Source: Psychrobacter sp. P11F6
GTDB taxonomy: Bacteria; Pseudomonadota; Gammaproteobacteria; Pseudomonadales; Moraxellaceae
NCBI RefSeq assembly: GCF_001435295.1
Contig: NZ_CM003594.1
Location: forward strand, 1,116,001 to 1,180,000
Direction: 5' to 3'
Length of the DNA stretch: 64,000 bases
How positions within the stretch are numbered: the stretch's first letter is position 1; each line of letters begins with the position of its first letter. The notes below the pieces were generated by a model. That model made no database searches and was not told the DNA's origin. It was given only the letters and a program-made list of their open reading frames with translations. The translations under genes were made by a program, and so were the position numbers. Below, one piece after another: positions 792 to 42,026 of the stretch.

Positions 792-3464
792 CTAGCTAAG
801 CTGAGTTTCAATCCAAGCAGGTAGGGCATTGATAACCGCGGTACTGTTGGCAGACTTTGGCGCGCCGCCTTGTGCGTAATCTGGCTTACCACCCCCTTTA
901 CCGCCCAGCTCACCTGCCAAATGACGAATGATATCACCAGCTTTTACTTTCGCAGTCACAGACTTTGCCACGCTTGCGGCTAGGGCTAACTGTTCGTCTT
1001 TATCACCAATCAATACAATCACGCTATCAGGGAGTTTAGATTTAATATCGTCCATCAGGGTACGGATAGATTTGCCGTCGATACCGCTTAAGGTACTGAT
1101 AAGCACGGGCGTGCCTGCGATGGTCTGTACTTCATCGAGTAAATTGGCTGCTTGGGCGCTGGCGATTTTTTGCTCTAAACGCTCTAGTTGTTTCTCAAGT
1201 TCGCGCTGCTTATCCGCCATGGTACGCACGCGCTGTGCCACTTCAGGACGTTTTACTTTTAGCTGACTGGCAAGCTCGCTCAGCTGCTGCTCACTTTGCT
1301 GAATGTTTTTAATTGCATTCATGCCAGTGACAGCTTCAATACGGCGGATGCCAGCAGCAATACCTGATTCGCTGGTGATTTTTAACACACCAATATCACC
1401 AGTACGTTTAACGTGCAAACCACCGCACAACTCAATAGAGAAGGGCTTGCGCTGACCATCGATGATAATGTCAGTGCCCATGGTTAAGACGCGAACGTCA
1501 CTGCCATATTTTTCGCCAAACAATGCCATCGCACCTTGTTTCATCGCTTCGTCGATAGACATATTCTCGATGCGAGCAGGGGTGTTGGCTTGAATTTGCT
1601 CATTGACTAAGCGTTCGATACGCGTAATTTCAGCAGTGCTGACAGGCTTGTCATAGGAGAAATCAAAACGTAATACTTCGCTTGATACTAGCGAGCCTTT
1701 TTGCGTGACCGCGTCGCCCAATACTTCTCTTAATGCCGCATGCAATAGATGCGTGGCAGAGTGGTTTTTGGCACTGGCTGCGCGAATACTCGACAAGACT
1801 TGCGCATCAGCGGTCTGTTTGGTATTAATGTCACCCATGGTCACGACACCATAATGGATGATGGCTTGACCAGATTTTTTGGTGTCTTGCACTTCAAAAA
1901 CGCCAGTTGCAGTGCGGATTTCGCCAAGCTCACCAACTTGACCACCACCTTCAGCATAAAACGGTGTACGGTCAAGTACCACGACGCCTTCCATACCTTC
2001 GTTTAAGCTATCGGCTGGACTGCCATCTTGATACAGCGCATCAATCGTGACGCCTTCTTCTGCAAGCTGCTCATAACCAATAAAGGTCGTTGGGTTTTCT
2101 ACTTGAATGACACTGCTATAATCAACGTCAAATTTGCCAGCATCACGAGCACGCTCACGTTGCGCTTGCATATGCTCATCAAATTCAGCTTCATCAATCA
2201 CAATACCGCGCTCACGAGTGATATCCGCAGTCAAATCGACCGGGAAACCATAAGTATCGTACAGTTTAAATGCGGCTTCCCCAGATAACGTGTCGCCATC
2301 TTTTAGACCTTCCAGCTCGCTGGCAAGTAGACGTAAGCCTTGTGCCAAAGTTTTGGCAAACTGTGCTTCTTCCTTTTGAATGGCATTTTCAATGACGCTT
2401 TGCTTATCTTTTAGCTCAGGATACGCCGTACCCATTTCAGCAACCAAAGGCGCGACCATTTTATAGAAAAACTCACTGTCAGCACCAAGTTTATTGCCAT
2501 GACGTACCGCACGACGAATGATACGGCGCAGTACGTAACCACGACCTTCGTTGCTTGGAGTAACGCCATCAGCAATCAAAAATGAAACGGCGCGAATATG
2601 GTCAGCGATGACTTTTAATGACGATTGTTGCTGGTTTTCAATCTCTAAAATCTTAGCCGCCGCATCCATCAAGTGTACAAACAAATCTATCTCGTAGTTG
2701 CCATGGACGCCTTGCATGATGGCGCTGATACGCTCAAGTCCCATGCCAGTATCTACGCTTGGCGCTGGTAGCGGTAGCATAGTGCCATCTTTTTGACGAT
2801 TAAACTGCATAAAGACGCAGTTCCAAATCTCGATATAACGGTCGCCATCTTCTTCAGGTGTGCCCGGTAGACCGCCTTCGATATCGGCACCATGGTCATA
2901 AAAGACTTCGGTACAAGGGCCGCAAGGGCCGGTGTCACCCATCGTCCAAAAGTTGTCTGAGGCGTAAGGTGCGCCTTTATTATCGCCAATACGGATAATG
3001 CGCTCGCTTGGGATGCCGATGTCTTTATGCCAAATATCAAAGGCTTCGTCGTCAGTCTCATAAATGGTCACATACAAGCGGTTTTTATCGATTGCTAGCC
3101 ATTCATCTGAGGTCAAAAATTCCCAAATATAGCCAATACCGGCTTGCTTAAAATAATCGCCAAAAGAGAAATTACCGAGCATTTCAAAAAACGTATGATG
3201 GCGCGCCGTATAACCGACATTATCCAAATCATTATGCTTGCCGCCAGCACGTACGCACTTTTGCGACGTCACCGCACGGGTATAATCACGTGGCTCCATA
3301 CCCAAAAACGTTTCTTTAAATTGATTCATACCGGCATTGGTAAATAGCAATGTCGGGTCATTGTGTGGAATCAAACTCGATGAGGCGACGGGGGTGTGCT
3401 GCTTGCTTATGAAAAAATCGATAAAAGCTTGACGAATATCGGCTGAGCGAAATGGCTGGCTCAC
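792..3464 (-). CDS. alaS: Alanyl-tRNA synthetase
   Basis: Charges tRNA-Ala in the cytoplasm. The 890-residue product is close to the usual bacterial length of about 875. The class II catalytic core is at the N-terminus ([14 protein letters not shown], then [14 protein letters not shown] and [18 protein letters not shown]). The editing domain is shown by [16 protein letters not shown] (zinc-binding HxxxH) and CGGLH (CxxxH), so mischarged Ser/Gly-tRNA should be hydrolysed. The C-terminal domain ends in the glycine-rich [14 protein letters not shown]. The ATG at 3464 is the natural start because the conserved N-terminus begins there. It is upstream of lysC in the same orientation, and nothing looks damaged. 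Confidence 0.98.
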
Positions 3465-3626
3465 AGCGGCTCCTTACTGGCGAATAGAATTGAGTAAAAT
3501 AATTTTGCAAACGATTTTAGCACAAACGCCCAAGCTCTTGGTACAAGAGTTACAACGGCTAGGTTATTCTGCGCCTGTAGATGCTCAATGGATTTGTAGC
3601 GCATCAAAGCCAGTTGGTCAAAAAAG

Positions 3627-5438
3627 CTAATTGGTCAAAATCGCCGCATCAGTCTCGTCCAGTTTATCTTGTATCAATGGATTGGATTCAATGACTTGTA
3701 CTGGCAAGTAGCGTAGCTGTAGCTTAATAGGGAGATACTCAGGAAAATTCTCTGCCATATCCTGAGTAATGACGGTTTCAATTTGCCGTACATCGTATGA
3801 GGTAGGCGTCGTCTCTCCGCGAATGACCGCACGTACGACTTTATTGTCTTCTGAGGTATCAAATTGCGTATTGGTCAGCACGTTGCCTTTATCGATAAAG
3901 TAGCTATTGATGGCTTCTTTGACGCTACTCTCAAAAACCTGCTGCTTGGCGTTGGTCTGTAGGTTGATGGTCAAATACGTCCCTAAACCACCTAACAATA
4001 ATAACGTCACCGCATTACGGCGTAAAAAGGTCAAATAGGTGCTGGATTTATAATCGTCATCGACCAAACGGCGAAAGCCTAATAACCAAAGTACTAAAGC
4101 ATTGGTAAACTGGATAGCAATAATATTGGTTAGCGCCAGTAGCAGTGCCCCAAGTCCAAGCTGCGTCTCGCCATTGGCAAATAATATCCCACTCGCGGCA
4201 AGAGGTGGCACCAATGCAGTGGCTACCGCCACGCCTACCACTGCCACTGATAGGTGCGGTGAAACCATCGCGTAAGCGCCAGCAGTACCACCCGCTAGAG
4301 CAATCATTAAATCCATCGAGGTTGGCTGAGTGCGCGATAATATCTCTGCGGTCAGTGGCTGATCTTTGTGTAACCAGCCGACGATAAAACCAACCAATAC
4401 CACCAATGATACGCCGACGATAACCGTAATCAGTGATTTACGTAGTAATGGCATACGATGATCAATAATCGCTAACGCTATGCCAGTAATGGGACCTAAC
4501 ATCATGGCAACCAACATGGCGCCAATGACGACGGCAGCTGAATTGGTCACTAACCCATAACTGGCGATGATGGCAGAAAGTATATTCATAATGAAATACA
4601 TTTTGCTAGGCAGAGCGTTGGCCTCGATTCTGACCCGTACTTCTGGATAGTCTACCTTTTGATTGCTAAATTGCTCGGCAACAAATTGCTTATAAGACTC
4701 GAGCTTGGCTTCTTTTTTTTCTTTAATCTCGTCTTCTAGCTCTTCCTGATTATCGACTTTATCTTTTACAGTATTTTTTACGATAGTGTCATTATTTTTC
4801 GGTGTGTTTGGCTGTTTATCAATTGAGGACGGTTTTGTGTTGTCACTATTTGCTTTGCTTTCTTGCTGAGGGTTATCAGAGATAGGATAAGTGCCCTGTG
4901 CATCAGCTGGGGCAATACCCTCTGCCTCTACCGTTACCTCAGCGTCAGCATCTTTTTGAGACGTTTGCTCGTAAGCGTTATCTTCTTTTGCTTGAGCATG
5001 TTCTGCTGATGCATTTTCTAGATTTTGATGATTGGGCGCTGTTGTCAATCTCAACGATTCATTGAATAGTGGTGTCTCAAGCCCAGTGATTTCACGTTTA
5101 GTTATTTCAGACTCATTGTTGGGCTTGGCGGTTTCTAACGTTGCCACTACCTCGTCAGCACCAATGGACTTTATCGCTATCGTTGTTTCAGGAGGCTGCG
5201 CACAAGCCATATCCTCGCCACAGTCATTGTCATCACGAATCTCTGAGCTTTTTGAAGACTCAGTATGTTCGACAGTGCTATCTAGTACAGAGCTATCATC
5301 TGCGTCAGTTAGCGCCGCTTTTTTGTCTAGATAATTGGCCGTGCTTGAAGCATCTTTTATAACTGAAGAATCATTAGAGAGTTTGTTTTCAGATGAGGTC
5401 ATGGCAGATGGCTTTCTTAAAAAGTAAAAGAAAGACAT
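3627..5438 (-). CDS. DUF389 (TIGR00341-type) membrane protein with long disordered N-terminus
   Basis: A 603-residue predicted inner-membrane protein of unknown function. The C-terminal half matches the DUF389 type, with hydrophobic helices including NSAAVVIGAMLVAMMLGPIT, GLGALLLALTNIIAIQ and LLLLGGLGTYLTI. The first 240 or so residues are unusual: rich in Asp, Glu, Ser, Thr and Lys without membrane segments, ending in a charged helix (EELEDEIKEKKEAKLESY) just before the membrane domain. The start is uncertain. The ATG at 5438 has no clear ribosome site, and a second in-frame ATG at 5402 (MTSSENK) follows an AAGAAAG stretch. It is convergent with nothing and transcribed towards alaS. No substrate or partner can be assigned. 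Confidence 0.8.
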   Translation of the reverse strand: MSFFYFLRKPSAMTSSENKLSNDSSVIKDASSTANYLDKKAALTDADDSSVLDSTVEHTESSKSSEIRDDNDCGEDMACAQPPETTIAIKSIGADEVVATLETAKPNNESEITKREITGLETPLFNESLRLTTAPNHQNLENASAEHAQAKEDNAYEQTSQKDADAEVTVEAEGIAPADAQGTYPISDNPQQESKANSDNTKPSSIDKQPNTPKNNDTIVKNTVKDKVDNQEELEDEIKEKKEAKLESYKQFVAEQFSNQKVDYPEVRVRIEANALPSKMYFIMNILSAIIASYGLVTNSAAVVIGAMLVAMMLGPITGIALAIIDHRMPLLRKSLITVIVGVSLVVLVGFIVGWLHKDQPLTAEILSRTQPTSMDLMIALAGGTAGAYAMVSPHLSVAVVGVAVATALVPPLAASGILFANGETQLGLGALLLALTNIIAIQFTNALVLWLLGFRRLVDDDYKSSTYLTFLRRNAVTLLLLGGLGTYLTINLQTNAKQQVFESSVKEAINSYFIDKGNVLTNTQFDTSEDNKVVRAVIRGETTPTSYDVRQIETVITQDMAENFPEYLPIKLQLRYLPVQVIESNPLIQDKLDETDAAILTN

Positions 5439-14354: not shown

Positions 14355-14713
14355 GGGGATGTTCTGGCTTCGACGCTGGTAATGAAACTCAATGATGCAT
14401 GTCGAGAGTATATGTCCTCTCGTTAATCAAACATATATTGTTATAGTCGCAAACGACGAAAATTACGCTCTAGCAGCTTAAACCCTGTTTACTTAGTTGC
14501 TGATCACCTACAGTTGGTCAACTAAGTTGAAGCGTCCGCATGTAGGCTCGCCACAAGTGATTGTCTCAATTGCTTGGGTTCAAAAGTAGAGAATCGTCCA
14601 ATCCATCCTGACTGTCGGATCGGTGCGGATTAAAACTAAAGACAGAAACTAAACATGTAGATTCATGAGCGTAATGCTGGCGGACGCGGGTTCAACTCCC
14701 GCCATCTCCACCA
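14355..14713 (+). ncRNA. ssrA: Transfer-messenger RNA (tmRNA)
   Basis: Rescues stalled ribosomes by adding a degradation tag. The 5' end GGGGATGTTCTGGCTTCGAC and the 3' end GGGTTCAACTCCCGCCATCT followed by CCACCA form the tRNA-Ala-like acceptor and T-arm. The tag reading frame at 14449-14481 encodes ANDENYALAA and stops with TAA, a typical gammaproteobacterial tag. Total length is 359 bases. The last bases are used as the attachment site of the island that follows, and the gene is kept intact by the island's left end. Confidence 0.98.
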
Positions 14714-14715
14714 AA
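14699..14715 (+). other. Attachment site attL (17-bp direct repeat, copy 1)
   Basis: CCGCCATCTCCACCAAA overlaps the 3' end of ssrA and is repeated exactly at 37044-37060. An integrase gene starts 162 bp further on in the same direction. This is the standard arrangement for integration at the 3' end of a tmRNA gene. Confidence 0.92.
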
Positions 14716-14876: not shown

Positions 14877-16118
14877 GTGCCCCTAACCCATACCGCTATC
14901 AATAAGCTACAGCCCAGTAGTATTTCCATTGATACTAAGCGACCTGACAAACACAGTGATGGTAACGGGCTGCAATTATGGGTTCGTTATACAGGTGTTA
15001 AGTCATGGATCAGTGCTTACCGCTGGCAAGGTAAACAGCAAACTCTCACTATTGGTACCTATCCAGTAATGAGCCTTCAAAATTCACGCCAGCGCAATAT
15101 TGAGATTAAACGTTTAATAGCTGATGGTGTGAATCCGAAAGACCACAAAAAAGATCAGCGAGCCAGCCAAGACGGTAAAAAGATATTTGATACAGTCGCA
15201 CAAGATTGGTATGCCGAACGTAAAACCTACCTAGCAGAAAGTACCTTCTCCCGTAATTACTCCGCATACATGCGTGACATTAAGCCTTCTATCGGCCAAA
15301 AGAATATAGATGACATAACCGCACCTGATGTCTTAGCTATTGGTAAGGCAGTAGAGGCACGTGGCGCTGGCGAAATGGCGAAGCGTACTATTAGGGAGGT
15401 GGGTCAAATATTCAAACACGCTATACGTAACGGACTTGCAATTCATAATCCCGCTACCGACCTTGCAGAAGCTATCAAACCTCGTAAAACTGTGCACCAC
15501 AGCCGTGTAACCTCTCAACAGCTACCTAAGCTACTTCAGGACATTAACGCCTATGAGGGTGATTTACTGGTCAAGTTGGGCTTATGGTTTATGTGCTATA
15601 CGTTTGTACGTACCAGTGAGCTCCGCTTTATGGAGTGGTCAGAGATTGACTATAAACACGGTCTATGGCGAATAGCTGCTGAGAAGATGAAAGCTAATCG
15701 TTTGCATATTGTGCCATTGGCGCCACAAGCAATGGTTATATTGGAACAGATCAAAGAGTTAGGATTTTCGAATCAATACGTTTTCTTTAATACCTCAACA
15801 CGTAAGCCTTACAGTCAAAATGCGTTCATTACTGCCTTATGGAGAATGGGCTATAAAGGCCGCATGACTGGCCATGGCTTCCGTGGTCTTGCTAGCACTA
15901 CATTGCATGAAAAAGAATTTATGCACGAAGCGATAGAGCTGCAACTGGCACACGATAGAGAAAACAAAATCAGTGCAGCCTATAACGGAGCGCAACACCT
16001 ACCATACAGAATTGACATGATGCACCAATGGGCAAACTTCATTGATGATGCTTATGCTGGCAAGTTAGATAACGTCATTCATGCCAGCTTCAAACAACAA
16101 ACACAAAAGCATGGTTAA
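14877..16118 (+). CDS. int: P4-type tyrosine integrase
   Basis: Site-specific recombinase expected to insert and excise the island at ssrA. The 413-residue protein has the DUF4102-like N-terminal domain (PLTHTAINKLQPSSISIDTK), a central SAM-like DNA-binding domain, and a C-terminal catalytic domain. Catalytic residues are visible: Arg245 (FVRTSEL), His333 and Arg336 (GHGFRGLAST) and the nucleophile Tyr369 (SAAYNGAQHLPYR). Translation starts at GTG 14877, preceded by AAAGGAT; no ATG gives the conserved N-terminus. An inverted arm-type repeat abuts the ribosome site, suggesting self-repression. It looks intact. Confidence 0.95.
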   Translation: MPLTHTAINKLQPSSISIDTKRPDKHSDGNGLQLWVRYTGVKSWISAYRWQGKQQTLTIGTYPVMSLQNSRQRNIEIKRLIADGVNPKDHKKDQRASQDGKKIFDTVAQDWYAERKTYLAESTFSRNYSAYMRDIKPSIGQKNIDDITAPDVLAIGKAVEARGAGEMAKRTIREVGQIFKHAIRNGLAIHNPATDLAEAIKPRKTVHHSRVTSQQLPKLLQDINAYEGDLLVKLGLWFMCYTFVRTSELRFMEWSEIDYKHGLWRIAAEKMKANRLHIVPLAPQAMVILEQIKELGFSNQYVFFNTSTRKPYSQNAFITALWRMGYKGRMTGHGFRGLASTTLHEKEFMHEAIELQLAHDRENKISAAYNGAQHLPYRIDMMHQWANFIDDAYAGKLDNVIHASFKQQTQKHG

Positions 16119-27903: not shown

Positions 27904-28992
27904 ATGAATGATTATGATGGATTTTTGACTTTGGCTGAGTTGGTTTTGGTAGGTGATAGTGACAATGCTTCTAAATTCGCCCGACAAAATCTATTGAAAA
28001 TTGCTAAGCATCATCCAGATTTGAATGATAAGATTTTAAATATAATTAAAAAAAATAGAGGGGTGGGTGTAACGAAAAGTCTTAGGTTTTCTAAAAAACC
28101 TCTACCAGTAGATCAAGACAGCAGGCTTGAATTAATAAAAACATCCGTTACTTCTCAAGTATTTCCAGAAACTAAGTGGCCTGATGAAGTACAGAAGACT
28201 CTTGACGAAGTAATTGAAGAGCGAAAGTTCGAAGAAAAGCTAGTTCTAGCTGGTCTAGATCCCATAACGTCATTATTATTCGTAGGAGCGCCGGGGGTTG
28301 GGAAAACATTGGCAGCTGCTTGGCTAGCACTAATGCTGAATAAACCCTTTTACGTACTTGATTTGTCAGCAGTGATGAGTAGTTATCTGGGTAGAACAGG
28401 TAATAATATTAGAACAGTACTGGATTTTGCTAAGTCTCAGTCTGCTGTACTTCTATTAGATGAATTTGATGCAATCGCAAAACGACGTGATGATAATAGT
28501 GAGATAGGTGAATTAAAAAGACTAGTGACTGTATTATTACAAGAAATTGAAAACTGGCCTAATGATGGCTTATTAATTGCTGCTACTAATCATGAGGAGC
28601 TTTTAGATCCAGCAGTATGGCGTAGATTCAATAAGACTGTAGTTTTTCCAAATCCCAGTTATGATGATATTTATAAATTTTTAAAGTTTAATTTAAGTAA
28701 GTACATTGATGATAAATCGATTATTCCTATTTTGAGTATTTTGTTTGTTGGCGAGACTTACGCTAATATTGATAAAAAGATAAAGTTTTTCAGAAAAAAT
28801 TCTGTATTATCAGATACTCCGTTGGATTTGTTACTTCATAAATATATAGAAGAAGTAGATAAGAGTATAGACAAAACTAATAAGGAGAAAATGAAGCATT
28901 TAGCCATCGACTTGCTAAAAGAAAATATTAGTCAAAGACAAGTAAGTAAGATTACGGGAATTAGCAGGCCCACGCTAAGTAAAATGCTTTAA
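27904..28992 (+). CDS. AAA+ ATPase, IetA-like, with C-terminal HTH
   Basis: A 362-residue AAA+ ATPase. Walker A is GAPGVGKT (about residues 128-135), Walker B LLLDEFDA (183-190), and downstream LLIAATNHEELLDPAVWRRF gives sensor 1 and the arginine finger. The last 28 residues, NISQRQVSKITGISRPTLSK, look like a resolvase-type helix-turn-helix. It is followed 141 bp later by a subtilisin-like protease gene; this ATPase/protease pair resembles IetAS, known first from plasmid stability work and later as an anti-phage system. AT-rich composition differs from the replication genes upstream. The pairing supports the call; the mechanism is inferred. Confidence 0.8.
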   Translation: MNDYDGFLTLAELVLVGDSDNASKFARQNLLKIAKHHPDLNDKILNIIKKNRGVGVTKSLRFSKKPLPVDQDSRLELIKTSVTSQVFPETKWPDEVQKTLDEVIEERKFEEKLVLAGLDPITSLLFVGAPGVGKTLAAAWLALMLNKPFYVLDLSAVMSSYLGRTGNNIRTVLDFAKSQSAVLLLDEFDAIAKRRDDNSEIGELKRLVTVLLQEIENWPNDGLLIAATNHEELLDPAVWRRFNKTVVFPNPSYDDIYKFLKFNLSKYIDDKSIIPILSILFVGETYANIDKKIKFFRKNSVLSDTPLDLLLHKYIEEVDKSIDKTNKEKMKHLAIDLLKENISQRQVSKITGISRPTLSKML

Positions 28993-29133: not shown

Positions 29134-31374
29134 ATGGCTAGAGATAGTAACTTTTTAATTGGAAGTGGAGAGAAATTAATCTCTCAAGCAGTTATTAAAA
29201 GTGGTGGTGGACCTAAAAATCGCCCTTACAGCTTTCAAGAAGCTAAAGAAAGAATTTTTGGTCAGTTAGAGAGAGTTATTAATAATATAGCTGAACTTCC
29301 AGAGATAGCCAAGCCCAATGATGAAGCTATTATTTCTGTGACTTTACATCCAAGATATGTATCGAAAAGTGATCATCCTCAAAATTTCTTTGAAGCTCAA
29401 AATCTCATAGCAGTTGGAAGTAAGCCCAAGCACGTTAAACCTGATAATTGGGGTACTAAAAAAGTACCTGATGATGAGTCTTTGACAGATATATATTATA
29501 TAAAATCATCAATTTTTAATCTCGAAAACTTCTTAAATAATATTGGTGATTTAACTGAAAATGAGTTAAATAAGACGATTTGTTATTTTGAGCAACTAGA
29601 TATAGACTCTAGTACAGAGAAGTTTCAAGGTGATATTACTGATTATGAAGATGAAGAAAATATCTTAATAGAATGTGTTCTCCATAATGGCGCATCAGAA
29701 ATTGTATTGGCCGGATTTTTTAATTACTTAGCAACTCTAGACGATAGTATTAAATATAATTTTGGTAAGGCTCGATCCGTTGGTCAGTTAGGCTTTGTAC
29801 CAATAATTACCGATGCAAAAAATCTAGATAGCATTGGTAAGTTTAGTTTTCTAAGAGCGTTTAGAAAAATGCCTGATTTAAGACCCTTTCGTCCTTCATT
29901 AACGAGAGATATGAACGATTGTATATATGAACTACCTACCAGTGTACTATTTGATAATATTAGAGCCGTAGTGTTTGATGGTGGGTTACCAGACAGTTTT
30001 GATTTGCCTGACTATATTAATTATGAAGAAATGGATGGGATTGGACAACCTACCGATGATTTTCTTCAGCATGGTTTAGCTGTTACAAGTGCTTATTTAT
30101 TTGGTCACATAAACAGCTCAGATAGTCTAAGCCCGATTTCAAATGTAACTCATGTCCGTGTTCTTGGAGAAAAACATCTTAATCCTGTCACTATGGATGA
30201 TATTAACCTATACGATGTAGTTGATAATATTGTTGACTACATGGAAAGAGAACAACCTGATTTAGTAAATATTAGCTTAGGTCCGAATTGTTCCGTGGAT
30301 GATAATGAAGTTACTTACTGGACTGCAAAACTCGACGGATATGTTGCTGAAAACGATGTGTTAATAACAGTTGCAGCTGGTAATAATGGTGACTGTTCTA
30401 GTCTTGGTAGTTTAAATAGAATTCAAATTCCATCAGATGGTGTAAATATATTAAGTGTTGGAGCTGCAAACTCATCAAATGGTGTCTGGGAAAGAGCTTC
30501 CTATAGCGCTATGGGTCCAGGTAGAAATCCTGGAGTAATTAAGCCTGATATTATTGCCTTTGGTGGAAGTAACCAAGAGTTTTTTAAAGTTCTTGATCTC
30601 TATAATGGTAACCTAGTCCTTAATAAACAACAGGGGACGAGTTTTGCTGCACCTCTAGTAATGAGACATGCTGCATTTATTAAAGGAAATTTTGGTACTA
30701 ATGTATCAAATATGGCATTAAAAGCAATATTAATACATCAGTCGGAGATGAATAGCTTTACTCATCAAGAAGTGGGCTGGGGCAAATGTCATGATGATAT
30801 TAATTATGCTGTTACATGTAACGATGATGAAGTAACAGTTATTTATCAAGATGTTTTGGCGGTTGGTTCCTTTACAAGACTGCCGTTGCCTATTAAAGAC
30901 ATTAAACTCCAGGGTAGAGTTTCTATAAAGAGCACGATCGTATCTAAAACTGATGTTGATCCTGAGTATGCGGCTGCTTATACTAAGAAAGGTTTTGAAG
31001 CTGTGTTTAGACCCCATGATGATAGTTTCAGCGAAGAAAATAGTGAACATCCCAAAGCGAAGTCTTTTTTCCCTAATGACAAGGCGTCTCGCACTAGTGA
31101 ACATACAATGAAGTCTCAAGGTGCTAAATGGGAATGTGTTAGAAAAGCGGAAGTGAGATTCATGGCTACGTCACTATCTAATCCAGTATTTGACTTAACT
31201 AGTCACCACAGAGATAAAGGTCAAGATGAAAGTGATAAACAGCCGATAGAGTTCGTTTGTGTAATAACTATCAAGTGTGAAAGTGTGAGCGATTTATACA
31301 ACGAAGTAGTGAGAAACTACCGAGGTATTTTAAATCCATTAACACCTCAGCAAACTATTCAAATTAGTATCTAA
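29134..31374 (+). CDS. Subtilisin-like serine protease, IetS-like
   Basis: A 746-residue S8-family peptidase without a signal peptide, so it acts in the cytoplasm. The catalytic triad is visible: Asp282 (AVVFDGGLPDS), His313 (QHGLAVTSAYLFG) and Ser503 (QQGTSFAAPLV), with the oxyanion Asn417 (VAAGNNGDC). The N-terminal 270 residues and the C-terminal 200 are family-specific domains, probably for partner binding or target recognition. An AAGGATG site precedes the ATG. It pairs with the AAA+ gene. All catalytic residues are present, so the protease should be active. Confidence 0.87.
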   Translation: MARDSNFLIGSGEKLISQAVIKSGGGPKNRPYSFQEAKERIFGQLERVINNIAELPEIAKPNDEAIISVTLHPRYVSKSDHPQNFFEAQNLIAVGSKPKHVKPDNWGTKKVPDDESLTDIYYIKSSIFNLENFLNNIGDLTENELNKTICYFEQLDIDSSTEKFQGDITDYEDEENILIECVLHNGASEIVLAGFFNYLATLDDSIKYNFGKARSVGQLGFVPIITDAKNLDSIGKFSFLRAFRKMPDLRPFRPSLTRDMNDCIYELPTSVLFDNIRAVVFDGGLPDSFDLPDYINYEEMDGIGQPTDDFLQHGLAVTSAYLFGHINSSDSLSPISNVTHVRVLGEKHLNPVTMDDINLYDVVDNIVDYMEREQPDLVNISLGPNCSVDDNEVTYWTAKLDGYVAENDVLITVAAGNNGDCSSLGSLNRIQIPSDGVNILSVGAANSSNGVWERASYSAMGPGRNPGVIKPDIIAFGGSNQEFFKVLDLYNGNLVLNKQQGTSFAAPLVMRHAAFIKGNFGTNVSNMALKAILIHQSEMNSFTHQEVGWGKCHDDINYAVTCNDDEVTVIYQDVLAVGSFTRLPLPIKDIKLQGRVSIKSTIVSKTDVDPEYAAAYTKKGFEAVFRPHDDSFSEENSEHPKAKSFFPNDKASRTSEHTMKSQGAKWECVRKAEVRFMATSLSNPVFDLTSHHRDKGQDESDKQPIEFVCVITIKCESVSDLYNEVVRNYRGILNPLTPQQTIQISI

Positions 31375-32482: not shown

Positions 32483-32657
32483 TTTATTCGCTCCGTAGAA
32501 AAGAAAAACTAATATTATCCCAAAATCAATTAAAGATAGTACCTGCCTAATTTACAACGAAGTGTAATATTAAGCTATTTTTAATTTTTCGTGTTCAATA
32601 CTATCGAAGTGAGACGAGGTTATAAGTAATTCGTTACCAATTCTCTTTTTTACAGCA

Positions 32658-32843
32658 CTATAGTTGATATAAAATTCTAGTATCTGAGATATTGTCGCAG
32701 GCGAGAGACCAGAATAAAAAATTTCTGGCCAATTTTTCATCATCGTAGCGTAATGTCTCATAAGCCCATTTGACGAGCTCATGCCCACGCTTACCGCTTG
32801 CTTCCAATGTCTTAATATCGATATTAGTTTCAATCGTTGCCAT
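32658..32843 (-). CDS. Small hypothetical protein, possibly frameshifted
   Basis: A 61-residue frame (MATIETNIDIKTLEASGKRG...) with GGTGG before the ATG. A second frame on the same strand (32570-32833) stays open further and could be the real C-terminus (YINYSAVKKRIGNELLITSS), in which case a frameshift near 32665 has truncated the gene. Function unknown. Confidence 0.4.
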   Translation of the reverse strand: MATIETNIDIKTLEASGKRGHELVKWAYETLRYDDEKLARNFLFWSLACDNISDTRILYQL

Positions 32844-32971: not shown

Positions 32972-33090
32972 TTCAATGCATTAGGTTATATAAAGTTATT
33001 GATATATATTTTTTGAAAAATACAGGGTTGACATATACAAAAATAAATGCTGTATAAATTGAACAAATGACCCCACAATGGTATCATCTA

Positions 33091-33250
33091 TTTGTGATAG
33101 CTTGTGATAGCTTGTGATAGCTTGTGATAGCTTGTGATAGCTTGTGATAGCTTGTGATAGCTTGTGATAGCTTGTGATAGCTTGTGATAGCTTGTGATAG
33201 CTTGTGATAGCTTGTGATAGCTTGTGATAGCTTGTGATAGCTTGTGGATG
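33091..33250. repeat. Tandem array of a 10-bp unit (CTTGTGATAG)
   Basis: Fourteen exact copies of CTTGTGATAG run from 33101 to 33240, preceded by one copy with a T in the first position (33091) and followed by a partial CTTGTGGATG. The array is flanked by CACAATGG (about 33073) and CCATTGTG (about 33252), an inverted pair. A 10-bp period matches one DNA turn. It ends about 95 bp before the TPR-like gene. There are no spacers, so it is not CRISPR. Confidence 0.95.
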
Positions 33251-33344
33251 CGCCATTGTGTGCCTATACAGAGTACGTGTCCTGTGGGACATTTTTTGCA
33301 TCTGAAATATCTGCAAAGAAATACAGATGAAATGAAGGTGAATT

Positions 33345-34205
33345 ATGACAATACGTCCAAAAAACTCTAAACAAGAAATTTTGAGTAATGTTCTTAGTGA
33401 TATTATAGATGAGTTTTTCTCTCAACAGAGAGGTATAGTGATACCTGCCACTAATATAATTCTTAAAGATTATTTAAAGAAGGCAGATGAAAATAAAGAA
33501 GGTGGGCCCTCTATATATTATCTTATTCAAGCATTGGCAGAAATGGCTAAAGGCAATATCCAAGCTGCTGAAAAATTTTGCAGTAATGCCACAAGACTTG
33601 ACCCTAATCACCCTACAATTATGTCGAATTATGCTACGATCTTATACCTTTTAGGGCGTCATGAAGAAGTGAAAAAAATAGTTAAAAAGTTGTTTGACGA
33701 GAAAAATGTTTCTCCTAAAAGAGATAGTGCAGTGAGTACAAACCTGATGCACAGCTCGCTAGTTACTTTAGATACTAGTTACTATGAGTCATCGAACGCA
33801 ATTAGTACTATCAATGGTTGGAATGATGTTGTGGATTATATTAAGAGAATCAAAAACGACCTTCATGAAGTTGATATTTCTTCCAACGAACACACTGAAT
33901 TCATGGAGCAACTAGAGCTTTTTCTGTTTGTTAAAACTCGTCAGATGGCAGCCTATAGATTAAGTATCGAAAATGGTTTAGACAGGTATTTAAAGATTGA
34001 GGTGTTTCTAGACATCAACGCAGACGAAGCTTCTTACCTAAATTCAGAATTCACCACTCATTTTGTGGATTACGTTTTTGATAAAGATCGTCATGACCTG
34101 CTAGGTAAGTTTGTGGTTTTTTTCAAACAGAATGAAAGCCGTCATGATGGCACTGAAAACTCAGATGCTTTATATTTAGGTATGAATGAAGAGTTGGTGG
34201 CTTAG
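33345..34205 (+). CDS. TPR-like helical protein, partner of HEPN-like gene
   Basis: A 286-residue soluble protein. Residues 60-115 contain two TPR-like helix pairs (YYLIQALAEMAKGNIQAAEK then MSNYATILYLLGRHEEVKK). The rest is mixed; a C-terminal segment has alternating charged and hydrophobic residues (RYLKIEVFLDINADEASYL). GAAGGTG precedes the ATG. Its stop is immediately followed by the ATG of the HEPN-like gene, so the two form an operon. I know no named system with this exact pair, and a role as the regulator or neutraliser of the HEPN-like partner is inference. Confidence 0.7.
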   Translation: MTIRPKNSKQEILSNVLSDIIDEFFSQQRGIVIPATNIILKDYLKKADENKEGGPSIYYLIQALAEMAKGNIQAAEKFCSNATRLDPNHPTIMSNYATILYLLGRHEEVKKIVKKLFDEKNVSPKRDSAVSTNLMHSSLVTLDTSYYESSNAISTINGWNDVVDYIKRIKNDLHEVDISSNEHTEFMEQLELFLFVKTRQMAAYRLSIENGLDRYLKIEVFLDINADEASYLNSEFTTHFVDYVFDKDRHDLLGKFVVFFKQNESRHDGTENSDALYLGMNEELVA

Positions 34206-34718
34206 ATGGCGGTAACGATTGAGGATTTATATAAGCAAAAGTTAAAAGTTGATGAGATGAGTTATGAGTGTGCAGAAGCTCATAAGCGATTAAAGATTAT
34301 TCGTGGTTATTACGCTACTTTTTTATACGCTAGCTCCTTATTTGATAATCCTCATTCAAACGGACATATGTTGGATAAACATGATTATCCGCCTAATCCA
34401 ACTGAAAGAACCTCTAAGTATGGTTCTCATCAGAAAATACACATGAGCTTGCAGCGCTCAAGAATTAGAGTTTTATCCGATCTGGGTATAGATCTACAAA
34501 AGTATCATGATATTAGAAAAAAGGCAGAATACGATATAGGCTTGGACATTACAGTTGAAGAAATAGATTTCGCTGAGTCTTCTTTCAAACAGCTCAAAGA
34601 GTATATTGATTTTTACATTAAAAATGGCGATCATCACTTCACTAAGTCAAAAAAGGTCATTAACGCCACAGTAGGCCGTAATGGTGTCAAAACTAGTGGT
34701 CTGAAAATATTGAAATAA
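34206..34718 (+). CDS. HEPN-like domain protein
   Basis: A 170-residue protein. The helix AHKRLKIIRGYYATFLYASS resembles the YYAxF helix of HEPN proteins, and IRKKAEYDIG followed by VEEIDFAESSFKQLKEYI resembles their RxxAxYD motif and last helix. HEPN proteins include toxin ribonucleases in abortive infection and toxin-antitoxin modules, usually with a nucleotidyltransferase partner; here the partner is the TPR-like gene. It starts directly at the upstream stop (TAGATG), and a terminator follows. The canonical RxxxxH ribonuclease motif is not obvious, so activity is open. Confidence 0.55.
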   Translation: MAVTIEDLYKQKLKVDEMSYECAEAHKRLKIIRGYYATFLYASSLFDNPHSNGHMLDKHDYPPNPTERTSKYGSHQKIHMSLQRSRIRVLSDLGIDLQKYHDIRKKAEYDIGLDITVEEIDFAESSFKQLKEYIDFYIKNGDHHFTKSKKVINATVGRNGVKTSGLKILK

Positions 34719-34742
34719 AAAATAGTTTTGTCGAGCAAAGCA

Positions 34743-34784
34743 AAAAGGCATTCGCGATTTATTCATGTAATGCCTTTTTTATTG
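34743..34784 (+). terminator. Terminator after the HEPN-like gene
   Basis: AAAAAGGCATT and AATGCCTTTTTT pair across a 16-base loop. It ends the two-gene unit about 25 bp after the stop codon. Confidence 0.85.
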
Positions 34785-34809: not shown

Positions 34810-35184
34810 CTAAACTTCTTCATACCTCTCATCACATACCTTCAGTCTAATCCCTATAACATCACTCAAGTCAGCACCTTTCTTAATACTGTAAGGCACG
34901 TTCGGGGTCATACCATCTTTCTTCAGAGCCATTTGAGCCGCCTTGTTCAGCGGCGTACCAATAGAGGAGTCTTCAATATGACCTACAGGTTCAAAATATA
35001 CTTCAATACCAAAATCTGGATAATAAACGCAGGATATCTCACCTGATGTCGTAAATGGGTAGGGTGTATCATGCACTGGAACATCACCAGAAACAAATTT
35101 ATTACTATCGTCTTGAGTAGGAGAGCATGCAATTGAAGGTAAGACGGCTATATTGATCAACCACCTGGGCATATCGATTCGCAT
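34810..35184 (-). CDS. Putative lipoprotein
   Basis: A 124-residue protein. The N-terminus (MRIDMPRWLINIAVLPSIAC) looks like a lipoprotein signal with Cys20, and two other Cys follow. A start at MPRW (35172) is also possible. No family is recognised. It begins inside the broken excalibur-domain gene upstream, in another frame, so it may be a recent arrangement. Confidence 0.45.
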   Translation of the reverse strand: MRIDMPRWLINIAVLPSIACSPTQDDSNKFVSGDVPVHDTPYPFTTSGEISCVYYPDFGIEVYFEPVGHIEDSSIGTPLNKAAQMALKKDGMTPNVPYSIKKGADLSDVIGIRLKVCDERYEEV

Positions 35185-37043: not shown

Positions 37044-37060
37044 CCGCCATCTCCACCAAA
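37044..37060 (+). other. Attachment site attR (17-bp direct repeat, copy 2)
   Basis: CCGCCATCTCCACCAAA is identical to 14699-14715 at the ssrA end. The preceding bases differ from ssrA, so identity stops exactly at the repeat and this is not a second tmRNA gene. It marks the right boundary of the island. Confidence 0.92.
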
Positions 37061-39752: not shown

Positions 39753-42026
39753 CTACCTGCTACTACGTACTGTTGTAGCGCTATTAAAGATTCTGAAATG
39801 ACCCATCAGCTTTTTTTCTGGTAGGGTTTTCATACCTGTGTCAGGATGTATCCATCTAGCATAAGAGCTCACACTTGGGTCAGCTGAGCTATACCAAGTT
39901 AAAGATGTTGGTGCATATACTGTACCTATATTTGGATGTGCAGCAATATACTCACCAAGAGTTTTAGTCAAACCATTTCCAACGTTACAAGATAAAAGAA
40001 CTAAAGTCTGACTATCTGTATATCCATTTAAACTAATAAACTCATAGAATTTATTTATGGCATCACGTTTTTGAGACTCAGTTTTTCCACTTATAGTCAC
40101 GTACTGATTCTTTGATTTTGTTATGTTTAAAGCTCTTTGAACTGGGTCTAGATCTCTTGTGTTCACCCATAAAATACTGCGGTTGCTACCATGAGCGTAA
40201 ACATAATAATATGAATGAGGTAAGTAGCGATCTCCTTCTAATATATCAATAGTCTTGTGAAAGTTAGTTTCATTACCTGCAAAACCATCGAAAGATTTAT
40301 AAAACATATTATCGCTAGTTCCTGCCTTTAATTTAAGTAATTTATTAAAACTAACTAATTTAGCCCCATTTGGTACAATAGGAACTGAATCTAAATTATA
40401 ACCTCCACTTATTCTCCTATTATAATCAGCTTTAAACGTTGAGTTTTTTGCTTTTAGGTTCTTAAGGATAGTTTCTAAAGAGTTTAAATCTTTGGCTGTT
40501 AAAATATTTTTCTCTGGACTAGGCGCCGCTGTAGCTATAATATTTGGTAAGTTACCACCTATATCTTGAGTATAAGTCCGACTTAACTCAGGCAGTATTT
40601 CAAGTAATATATTTGGATGATGTTCTTCTACCTTACCTGAATTATCTGATTTGCCCAGAGTGATATGCCCATTATGTGGATTAATCATTCGGTAACGTCT
40701 GTTTTTCAAAACACGTTCAGTCGCACTATCTATTAAATAGTAACTCATTGAAGTATCAGAACTTAAAAAATCTAAGACTTTAACGGTAACCCTGCCACCC
40801 GCAACCAAACCCTTCTTCACCGCCTTCACGGTAATCGTTCCCGGACACACCAGCTTAATCCCGCTATCATCAATCGTAATCGACGCACCTGCTGACGTTT
40901 GCAGCTTGATCCGCTTAGGACTCGACACATTTACCTGTCCTGACTCACTACCAATCGTCATACCTTGCTGAGAGTGCAATTGCAACTCACCGCCCTGTGC
41001 CTGTATTGCCAGTGGCTCTCTATTGGCACTGATATGCAGTCCTGACAGATCGGCTTGACCACCAATCCCAGAGAGCGAGTCAATCGTATTTGCCGTCAGC
41101 GTATAATTGCCCGCCACCACATCCGACTGGGTAGCACCTGATTGCCTGACTATTGTTTTCGCCGTCCATAGCGTATTGCTGGCTGCCGCTAAGATACTGT
41201 CTTTGCTGACTAACATGACATCGGCTGCGCCAAGTACTTCCGTATTTAATGTCGCATCGATGATTTGTGCACTGGTCTTAAAGGCTTCTATCGTTTGGTT
41301 GGCATCGCTAAGTGCTGCCGTGGATTGCAAGTGTGCCTGCTTTGCCTCCTTGAAGGTCTCGCTCAGCTCAGCGCCTAACTTAAGCTGCTGCTGTCCTGCA
41401 TCATTGACCCACGCCGACTCATGCTCGGTTTGCGTGTGTCTGATATCAAAGGTAGAGAGTAGCACCCCCGTATCACCAGTGATCTGTAGCCCATGATCGG
41501 TGGCGACATTGATGCCTTGACCACTATCATTTGATTGATGATTGCTAAAGCGATGGCGTAACGTGCCCAATGCGACGATATGCTCATCAGGGGCAAAGGT
41601 GGCGCTAGAAGTGATGGTTGGTGTCTCAGCATTGGCACGTGCCCCAGTATTCACTGACCACTGCAGTCCTATCTGGTTCGGCGTATCATCAAAGCTCATG
41701 GTTACTTCAGACTCAGAAGTCAGCCCATATTGAGCAATACCTGATATCCAGCCGCTGTGTCCATCATCTTCATTAATTTGCGAATGACCCAAACCACCAC
41801 CATGCCATCTAGGAGAAGATCCGCCTTGCAAGTTATGTCGATTAGATAAGCCTGCATCACGAGTGGTGATGTCTTTGTCATCGACATCGCCCATACCGAT
41901 ACCGTCATAAAGCAATCTGCTAATCACAGGACTGTCGATATCGCCATACCAATGGTTAAGCAGCACCGACTGTCCCAGCCTTAGCGCAAACTGCCAACCA
42001 TGAGTGCTACCCGATGACAGCTGCAA
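39753..42026 (-). CDS. VgrG C-terminal half fused to a cysteine-peptidase-like toxin domain
   Basis: A 757-residue product that lacks the VgrG N-terminal (gp27-like) region. Residues 1-395 correspond to the gp5-like and DUF2345 needle part of the VgrG at 45150. After the shared KLVCPGTI segment a transthyretin-like stretch (VLKNRRYRMINPHNGHITLG) leads to a unique C-terminal domain. This carries YYVYAHGSN and LVLLSCNVGNG with VYAPTSLTWYSS, the His and Cys motifs of clan-CD-like toxin peptidases found in polymorphic toxins. The ATG is internal to a conserved VgrG stretch, so this may be an orphan toxin cassette rather than a working spike. Confidence 0.7.
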   Translation of the reverse strand: MQLSSGSTHGWQFALRLGQSVLLNHWYGDIDSPVISRLLYDGIGMGDVDDKDITTRDAGLSNRHNLQGGSSPRWHGGGLGHSQINEDDGHSGWISGIAQYGLTSESEVTMSFDDTPNQIGLQWSVNTGARANAETPTITSSATFAPDEHIVALGTLRHRFSNHQSNDSGQGINVATDHGLQITGDTGVLLSTFDIRHTQTEHESAWVNDAGQQQLKLGAELSETFKEAKQAHLQSTAALSDANQTIEAFKTSAQIIDATLNTEVLGAADVMLVSKDSILAAASNTLWTAKTIVRQSGATQSDVVAGNYTLTANTIDSLSGIGGQADLSGLHISANREPLAIQAQGGELQLHSQQGMTIGSESGQVNVSSPKRIKLQTSAGASITIDDSGIKLVCPGTITVKAVKKGLVAGGRVTVKVLDFLSSDTSMSYYLIDSATERVLKNRRYRMINPHNGHITLGKSDNSGKVEEHHPNILLEILPELSRTYTQDIGGNLPNIIATAAPSPEKNILTAKDLNSLETILKNLKAKNSTFKADYNRRISGGYNLDSVPIVPNGAKLVSFNKLLKLKAGTSDNMFYKSFDGFAGNETNFHKTIDILEGDRYLPHSYYYVYAHGSNRSILWVNTRDLDPVQRALNITKSKNQYVTISGKTESQKRDAINKFYEFISLNGYTDSQTLVLLSCNVGNGLTKTLGEYIAAHPNIGTVYAPTSLTWYSSADPSVSSYARWIHPDTGMKTLPEKKLMGHFRIFNSATTVRSSR

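Follow-up and report, generated by a model that had tools for sequence, protein, structure and literature searches.

The 64-kb window analysed here (contig NZ_CM003594.1 of Psychrobacter sp. P11F6, positions 1,116,001 to 1,180,000; labelled W, with L-numbers for loci of relatives and G-numbers for genomes) carries two + strand genes that form a putative toxin-antitoxin or defence unit. Gene A (33345–34205; 286 amino acids, aa) encodes a tetratricopeptide repeat (TPR) protein with a C-terminal alpha/beta domain, a proposed antitoxin or sensor, and gene B (34206–34718; 170 aa) encodes a HEPN protein, a proposed RNase toxin. The stop codon of gene A directly abuts the start of gene B, and behind them lies an operon terminator (34742–34780, + strand), read directly from the sequence by eye as arms AAAAAGGCATT (34742–34752) and AATGCCTTTTT (34769–34779) followed by T, which the consensus scan did not list because its loop exceeds the limit of that scan. 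The original prediction for this DNA had described a unit at 33091–34718 made of two abutting genes, TPR-like and HEPN-like, with their own terminator and a partner other than the usual nucleotidyltransferase; this description holds in the window, apart from the start at 33091, which marks a repeat array and not a gene.

The TPR assignment of gene A rests on a Pfam match to TPR_19 (E 3.7e-6) that exceeds the family cut-off. In the structural model (mean predicted local distance difference test score, pLDDT, 87.0), helices continue up to residue 198 and are followed by strands at 203–210 and 214–222, a helix at 226–246, and a strand at 256–262. A fold search returned generic TPR proteins and two phage proteins matched across most of the length; its query was the whole protein. 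The gene B protein by itself had no match in the Pfam search, and its fold is the four-helix HEPN fold rather than an unrelated one. Its motif residues are E24x3R28, H75, and R104x4Y109. In the model, H75 opens the element that follows an insert (helix 74–83), and both H75 and R104 are invariant in 23/23 members. The AF0298/AbiV type is defined by the R of this motif together with a conserved H between helices 2 and 3, and gene B has both.

Upstream of gene A, the + strand is laid out as follows: an upstream promoter element P1 (-35 hexamer TTGACA, 33028–33033); promoter P2 (33059–33087), composed of TTGAAC (33059–33064), a spacer of 17 nucleotides (nt), and TATCAT (33082–33087); a 10-bp tandem array (33092–33246); and, between leader and operon, the stem-loop GTGTCCTGTGGGACAT with a T tract (33277–33297), a candidate intrinsic terminator whose stem is retained in relatives. 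Scored at the single locus, the promoter does not reach significance (10 found versus 9.9 expected). P2 is retained in some form across 11 loci of the Psychrobacter-like protein branch, which has 13 members, 12 of them with upstream sequence because L065 begins at gene A. In 11 of these 12, the order is shared: a TTGACA-like element, a TTGAAC-like element, about 17 nt, a TATTAT-like hexamer, the leader, the stem-loop, and a AAGGTGAATTATG-like start. TTGACA is exact in 8 of the 11 aligned leaders and altered in L020, L036, and L023, and 110 to 257 nt separate the -10 hexamer from the ATG. When the promoter motif was searched in 105 genus genomes and viral contigs, it matched at the TPR-HEPN module only; an extended P1 motif, built from the array-bearing loci, matched in 4/105 genus genomes, always at the module, and missed the remaining 4 genus loci of the branch. 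In an alignment of 9 of the 11 loci, with 8 distinct sequences, 97.5% of the cells of the leader stem are paired; L018 and L022, whose hairpins are longer by eye, are left out of it. The complete layout of promoter, array, stem-loop, and operon is found in the window and five further loci, with the T tract broken in 4 of the 6. Because promoter and stem-loop flank the array, it looks like part of a transcribed leader; the original prediction had described the array ahead of the genes and missed the promoter, the stem-loop, and the prophage described below.

Tandem Repeats Finder gives the array as 15.5 copies of TTGTGATAGC with a 100% match, starting 4 nt past the -10 hexamer. A dimer pattern has 13 exact in-register matches, equal to the fourteen consecutive CTTGTGATAG units predicted earlier, and no other occurrence at up to 2 mismatches in the 3.5 Mb genome. 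The framing elements named with these repeats are both present, CACAATGG at 33074–33081 and CCATTGTG at 33253–33260; since the first falls between the promoter hexamers and relatives do not retain the frame, not even L017, which has the unit TTGTGATAGC, we regard the frame as due to chance. Periodicity at a lag of 10 is significant in 6 of the 11 leaders and absent in 5, and the six arrays begin 4 (W, L017) or 2 nt (L019, L064, L021, L067) after the -10 hexamer, with 15.5 copies in W, 10.7 in L017, 3.3 in L019, 3.4 in L064, 4.2 in L021, and 5.9 in L067. Four units occur: TTGTGATAGC (W, L017), GCTGATTAAA (L019), GCTAATTAAA (L064, L021), and GTCGGACAAT (L067). L021 and L067 have unrelated units despite protein identities of 81% (A) and 87% (B), whereas L064 and L021 have a unit in common at only 26% (A) and 48% (B) identity. 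Matches were confined to the TPR-HEPN module for the first unit (searched in its own genome and viral contigs), GCTRATTAAA (105 genus genomes and viral contigs), and GTCGGACAAT (viral contigs only). Array position and period are therefore conserved and the unit sequence is not, an odd combination of a fixed 10-nt period, a free unit sequence, and a near-fixed start beside the predicted transcription start.

Several simple accounts of the array were rejected. Leaders of the window and of other array loci fold into long stems, as perfect tandem arrays tend to. A conserved hairpin was dismissed, since permuting the units of 8-copy arrays did not clearly lower their stability (for the four units, 0.748, 0.499, 0.435, and 0.096 of the permutations were as stable or more so). 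Three of the four units have stops in every frame of the + strand, GTCGGACAAT being open, and a minus-strand open reading frame (ORF) at 32996–33316 was dropped because the units are unconserved, with no search made with it. As an antisense to the start codon region, the array offers matches of only 4 nt in W and 5 nt each in L017 and L021; in L067, no match reaches 4 nt. In L019 and L064, the array complement has a 7-nt match to this region, the same base being changed in array and target.

Temperate phages, plasmids, and chromosomes from several genera carry the pair, and A is paired with B in 31/31 assembled loci. By its sequence, it is a mobile two-gene module, partner A directly followed by HEPN B, which here sits in a decayed prophage at ssrA. 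With the window's own proteins, tblastn found no relative in the phage collection, and gene B alone found none in the plasmid collection or the viral contigs, whereas profiles and distant members did find relatives. A broader profile matched in 10/369 class genomes and 24/398 phylum genomes, the own genome being included in each. The class and phylum searches, minus the window's own L085 and L095 of G038, gave a wider sample of 26 loci, 8 of the 28 places in the phylum search having no locus and being left out of the check; 25 of the 26 checked loci have a readable HEPN frame, and in 15 of these 25 the partner matches at E ≤ 1e-3. The recurrent co-occurrence of homologues that the prediction called for thus holds throughout the assembled loci and in part of the wider sample. 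Most of the pair proteins are called hypothetical in the database records examined, and the phage family of the pair is phrog_5176, annotated without a known function.

Gene order and pairing suggest that gene A serves as antitoxin or sensor, and the reading that we favour, at roughly even chances of being right, is that a TPR antitoxin or sensor is coupled to a HEPN RNase toxin, with A as the common restraint and the leader as a branch-specific layer. Gene B would be a metal-independent RNase toxin of the AF0298/AbiV kind, using E24x3R28, H75, and R104x4Y109; A would bind and restrain it and free it on a phage-borne cue, and the module, as a toxin-antitoxin or abortive-infection unit, would guard the lysogen. 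From a sigma-70 promoter, the Psychrobacter/Shewanella branch would make a short leader RNA mostly ending at the stem-loop before gene A, so that termination would give little operon mRNA and much leader RNA. The leader is often a 10-nt array, growing and shrinking, which may tune read-through or may be an expendable RNA bound by the complex, in either case supplementing the core antitoxin rather than being it. We assign the restraint to A and a branch-specific role to the leader because the units turn over, no structure is conserved, and 7 of the 18 leaderless loci lack room for a leader, with at most 103 nt before gene A (counting L066, omitting L071 as a near copy of L062, and taking ORFs of at least 100 aa as the upstream border).

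A number of observations weigh against this reading. Of the 25 readable HEPN relatives in the wider sample, 10 have no partner matching at E 1e-3; among these 10, three have short genes of 98–119 aa and two have a gene that is nucleotidyltransferase-like by motif. A profile built from the 13 branch partners alone reaches only 9 of 18 distant partners at E 1e-3, and the C-terminal domain of gene A alone matches at E ≤ 1e-3 in only 1 of the 15 matching partners, so that part of the matches may come from generic TPR likeness. The canonical RNase motif Rx4-6H is absent from gene B, where R104x4Y109 lacks the H. As for the leader, L066, a branch member by its proteins, lacks it; the stem covaries only slightly, a single pair having both its bases changed in 3 of 8 distinct sequences and 31/500 shuffles doing equally well; and at least 6 T follow the stem-loop in only 5 of 11 loci (W, L017, L018, L022, L023), the tract being broken in the others, so that termination may be weak. 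Gene A could also be a sensor or activator instead of an antitoxin, and toxicity, RNase activity, binding, and an effect on phage are all predictions from sequence. The HEPN family shades into other pairings, among which the TPR type is the commonest in the wider sample.

Short genes precede the HEPN relatives instead of a TPR gene in L088 (1179–1538), L091 (1200–1496), and L092 (1133–1489). The one in L088 is similar to the C-terminal domain of gene A (HMMER E 7.3e-4), perhaps the core partner; that the smaller partners are in general this bare domain is not claimed, as L088 is the only case and hhalign gave no support. A second, more divergent TPR-HEPN pair lies in L084 (G005:C1:1186000-1193000, 2975–4224), in a genome already holding one.

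The array itself may have other explanations. It could be a minisatellite, either neutral or phase-variable, that the leader tolerates and that has no specific partner, its copy number at most shifting expression. Perfect identity within arrays, together with varied units and copy numbers (3.3 to 15.5), is what slippage yields, and loci lacking an array retain promoter and stem-loop; however, seemingly independent units all have a period of 10 and a near-identical start, and array searches match at the TPR-HEPN module only (in scopes that differ by unit), which leaves this explanation rather unlikely. With a period of 10 bp, the array would also present a site at every helical turn, all on one side of the DNA, so that the A-B complex or a host protein might coat the array as an operator and repress its own promoter. 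The array does adjoin the promoter, and the period is kept in 6/6 arrays despite differing units; moreover, 4 of the 18 leaderless loci have upstream inverted repeats at p<0.05 (L060, L062, and L066, p=0.000; L054, p=0.017), the one in L062 resembling a terminator. We nevertheless consider an operator quite improbable, as the unit sequences vary while flanks and proteins remain alike, 14 of the 18 leaderless loci have no significant inverted repeat, and the Pfam matches of the two proteins include no prominent DNA-binding domain. The four inverted repeats upstream of gene A are unrelated in sequence.

The order of promoter, repeat RNA, terminator, and toxin operon would also suit a type III-like RNA antitoxin, in which the repeat transcript would neutralise, by binding, either the HEPN protein or its complex with the TPR protein, like ToxI-ToxN or RCd22-AbiF, and the terminator keeps the RNA in excess; AbiF of a Clostridioides difficile prophage is a precedent (PMC12373285). 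We hold this to be unlikely on several grounds: 5 of the 11 leaders have no significant 10-nt periodicity, L021 and L067 carry their unrelated units beside closely similar proteins, in folding, the units do not surpass most of their permuted forms, and the 7 leaderless loci mentioned above have no room for a leader. In addition, transfer-messenger RNA (tmRNA) is the sole Rfam match in the window at the gathering score, and the lax threshold added one chance snoRNA and nothing else. A more specific idea, which we put forward as a long shot and which would make the module a novel sort of RNA-controlled HEPN system, is that leader RNA of 10-nt units acts through repeat length and count and not through sequence, one unit seating one TPR-HEPN protomer and copy-number slippage setting the threshold for RNase release.

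Among known systems, type III toxin-antitoxins (ToxIN/CptIN/TenpIN) have a tandem-repeat leader and terminator before the toxin, a layout that the array and candidate terminator here resemble; their toxin is not known to be a HEPN protein. PMC12373285 cites a 2025 Cell paper whose subject is RNA-targeting CRISPR evolving from RNA toxin-antitoxins. An RNA antitoxin throughout the family, as type III would require, is at odds with the 7 leaderless loci. In HepT/MntA (HEPN/MNT, type VII), the partner is a nucleotidyltransferase, whereas the window has a TPR protein. The type II arrangement, an adjacent protein partner conserved with the toxin gene, is what the assembled loci and 15/25 of the wider sample display. 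Type III repeats measure 34–50 nt according to PMC12373285. The same paper describes for AbiF a SigA promoter, a non-coding RNA of about 100–130 nt, a Rho-independent terminator, and read-through into a toxin with HEPN likeness that is neutralised by direct binding of RCd22 RNA; the promoter, short RNA, terminator, toxin gene, and prophage carriage resemble our locus, where the RNA is predicted. AbiF differs, on that account, as a single Abi_2-family protein with two structured 33–35 nt motifs, whereas the module has two genes and 10-nt units unconserved in sequence.

Contrary to the earlier statement that no system of this composition had been described, HEPN genes beside TPR-type genes were tabulated in 2013 for other HEPN families: as given in PMC3710099, LA2681 is "fused to TPR" and also shares operons with TPR, and AbiU2 is in operon with a gene for a protein with Sel1 repeats. 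They resemble the present pair in sharing an operon with a TPR-type gene and differ in retaining Rx4-6H in the table of that paper; no LA2681 or AbiU2 match appeared among 23 members at E ≤ 1, in a Pfam copy whose content of those models was unchecked. The AF0298 HEPN-T family (UPF0332, PF05168, PDB 2hsb) is listed with AbiV, and Table 1 of PMC3710099 gives for it standalone forms, MNT fusions, and clustering with restriction-modification operons, with no TPR operon in that table. Operons of the HEPN-TPR and HEPN-Sel1 types, and a HEPN-like toxin under RNA control, are thus already in print. Our literature search, with figures and supplements outside its scope, found no paper describing the TPR pair of an AF0298-like HEPN or 10-nt arrays, and this combination of an AF0298-like HEPN with a TPR partner and 10-nt leader arrays is therefore apparently new. 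The pair may be in print in figures or supplements, for example of PMC13092281, which reports 4 validated systems with HEPN domains and mentions TPR in figure legends. If the module is a toxin-antitoxin or defence unit, it would add a partner type to HEPN biology.

The module lies within 14699–37060, which by its gene content and borders is a decayed prophage at ssrA. The tmRNA gene (ssrA, 14355–14713) is followed by a tyrosine integrase gene (14877–16118, + strand; Phage_integrase PF00589, E 4e-18), and the 17-bp attachment repeat at the 3′ end of ssrA (14699–14715, left end) has an identical copy at 37044–37060 (right end), so the stretch from 14.7 to 37.06 kb is an integrated element. The defence-rich island of the original prediction is partly borne out, by the adjacent defence pair IetA (27904–28992; PADLOC E 1.8e-81) and IetS (29134–31374; E 5.2e-48), both on the + strand, and is cargo of this prophage. 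IetA and IetS form an AAA ATPase and subtilase pair. The remnant further contains DnaB-like and IstB/DnaC-like genes, and, by eye, its genes for tape-measure-like and small-terminase-like proteins seem to be broken into fragments. Behind the module, on the opposite strand, a lipoprotein-like gene (34810–35184) recurs by eye in L017, L019, L021, L065, and L067, where a gene for a small DRDKDGVPCE-type protein lies beside it. By eye, a broken remnant on the minus strand at about 32620–32840 resembles the small gene that precedes the module in L019 and L067, and a VgrG-like type VI secretion gene (T6SS_Vgr, DUF2345) at 39753–42026 adjoins the prophage remnant.
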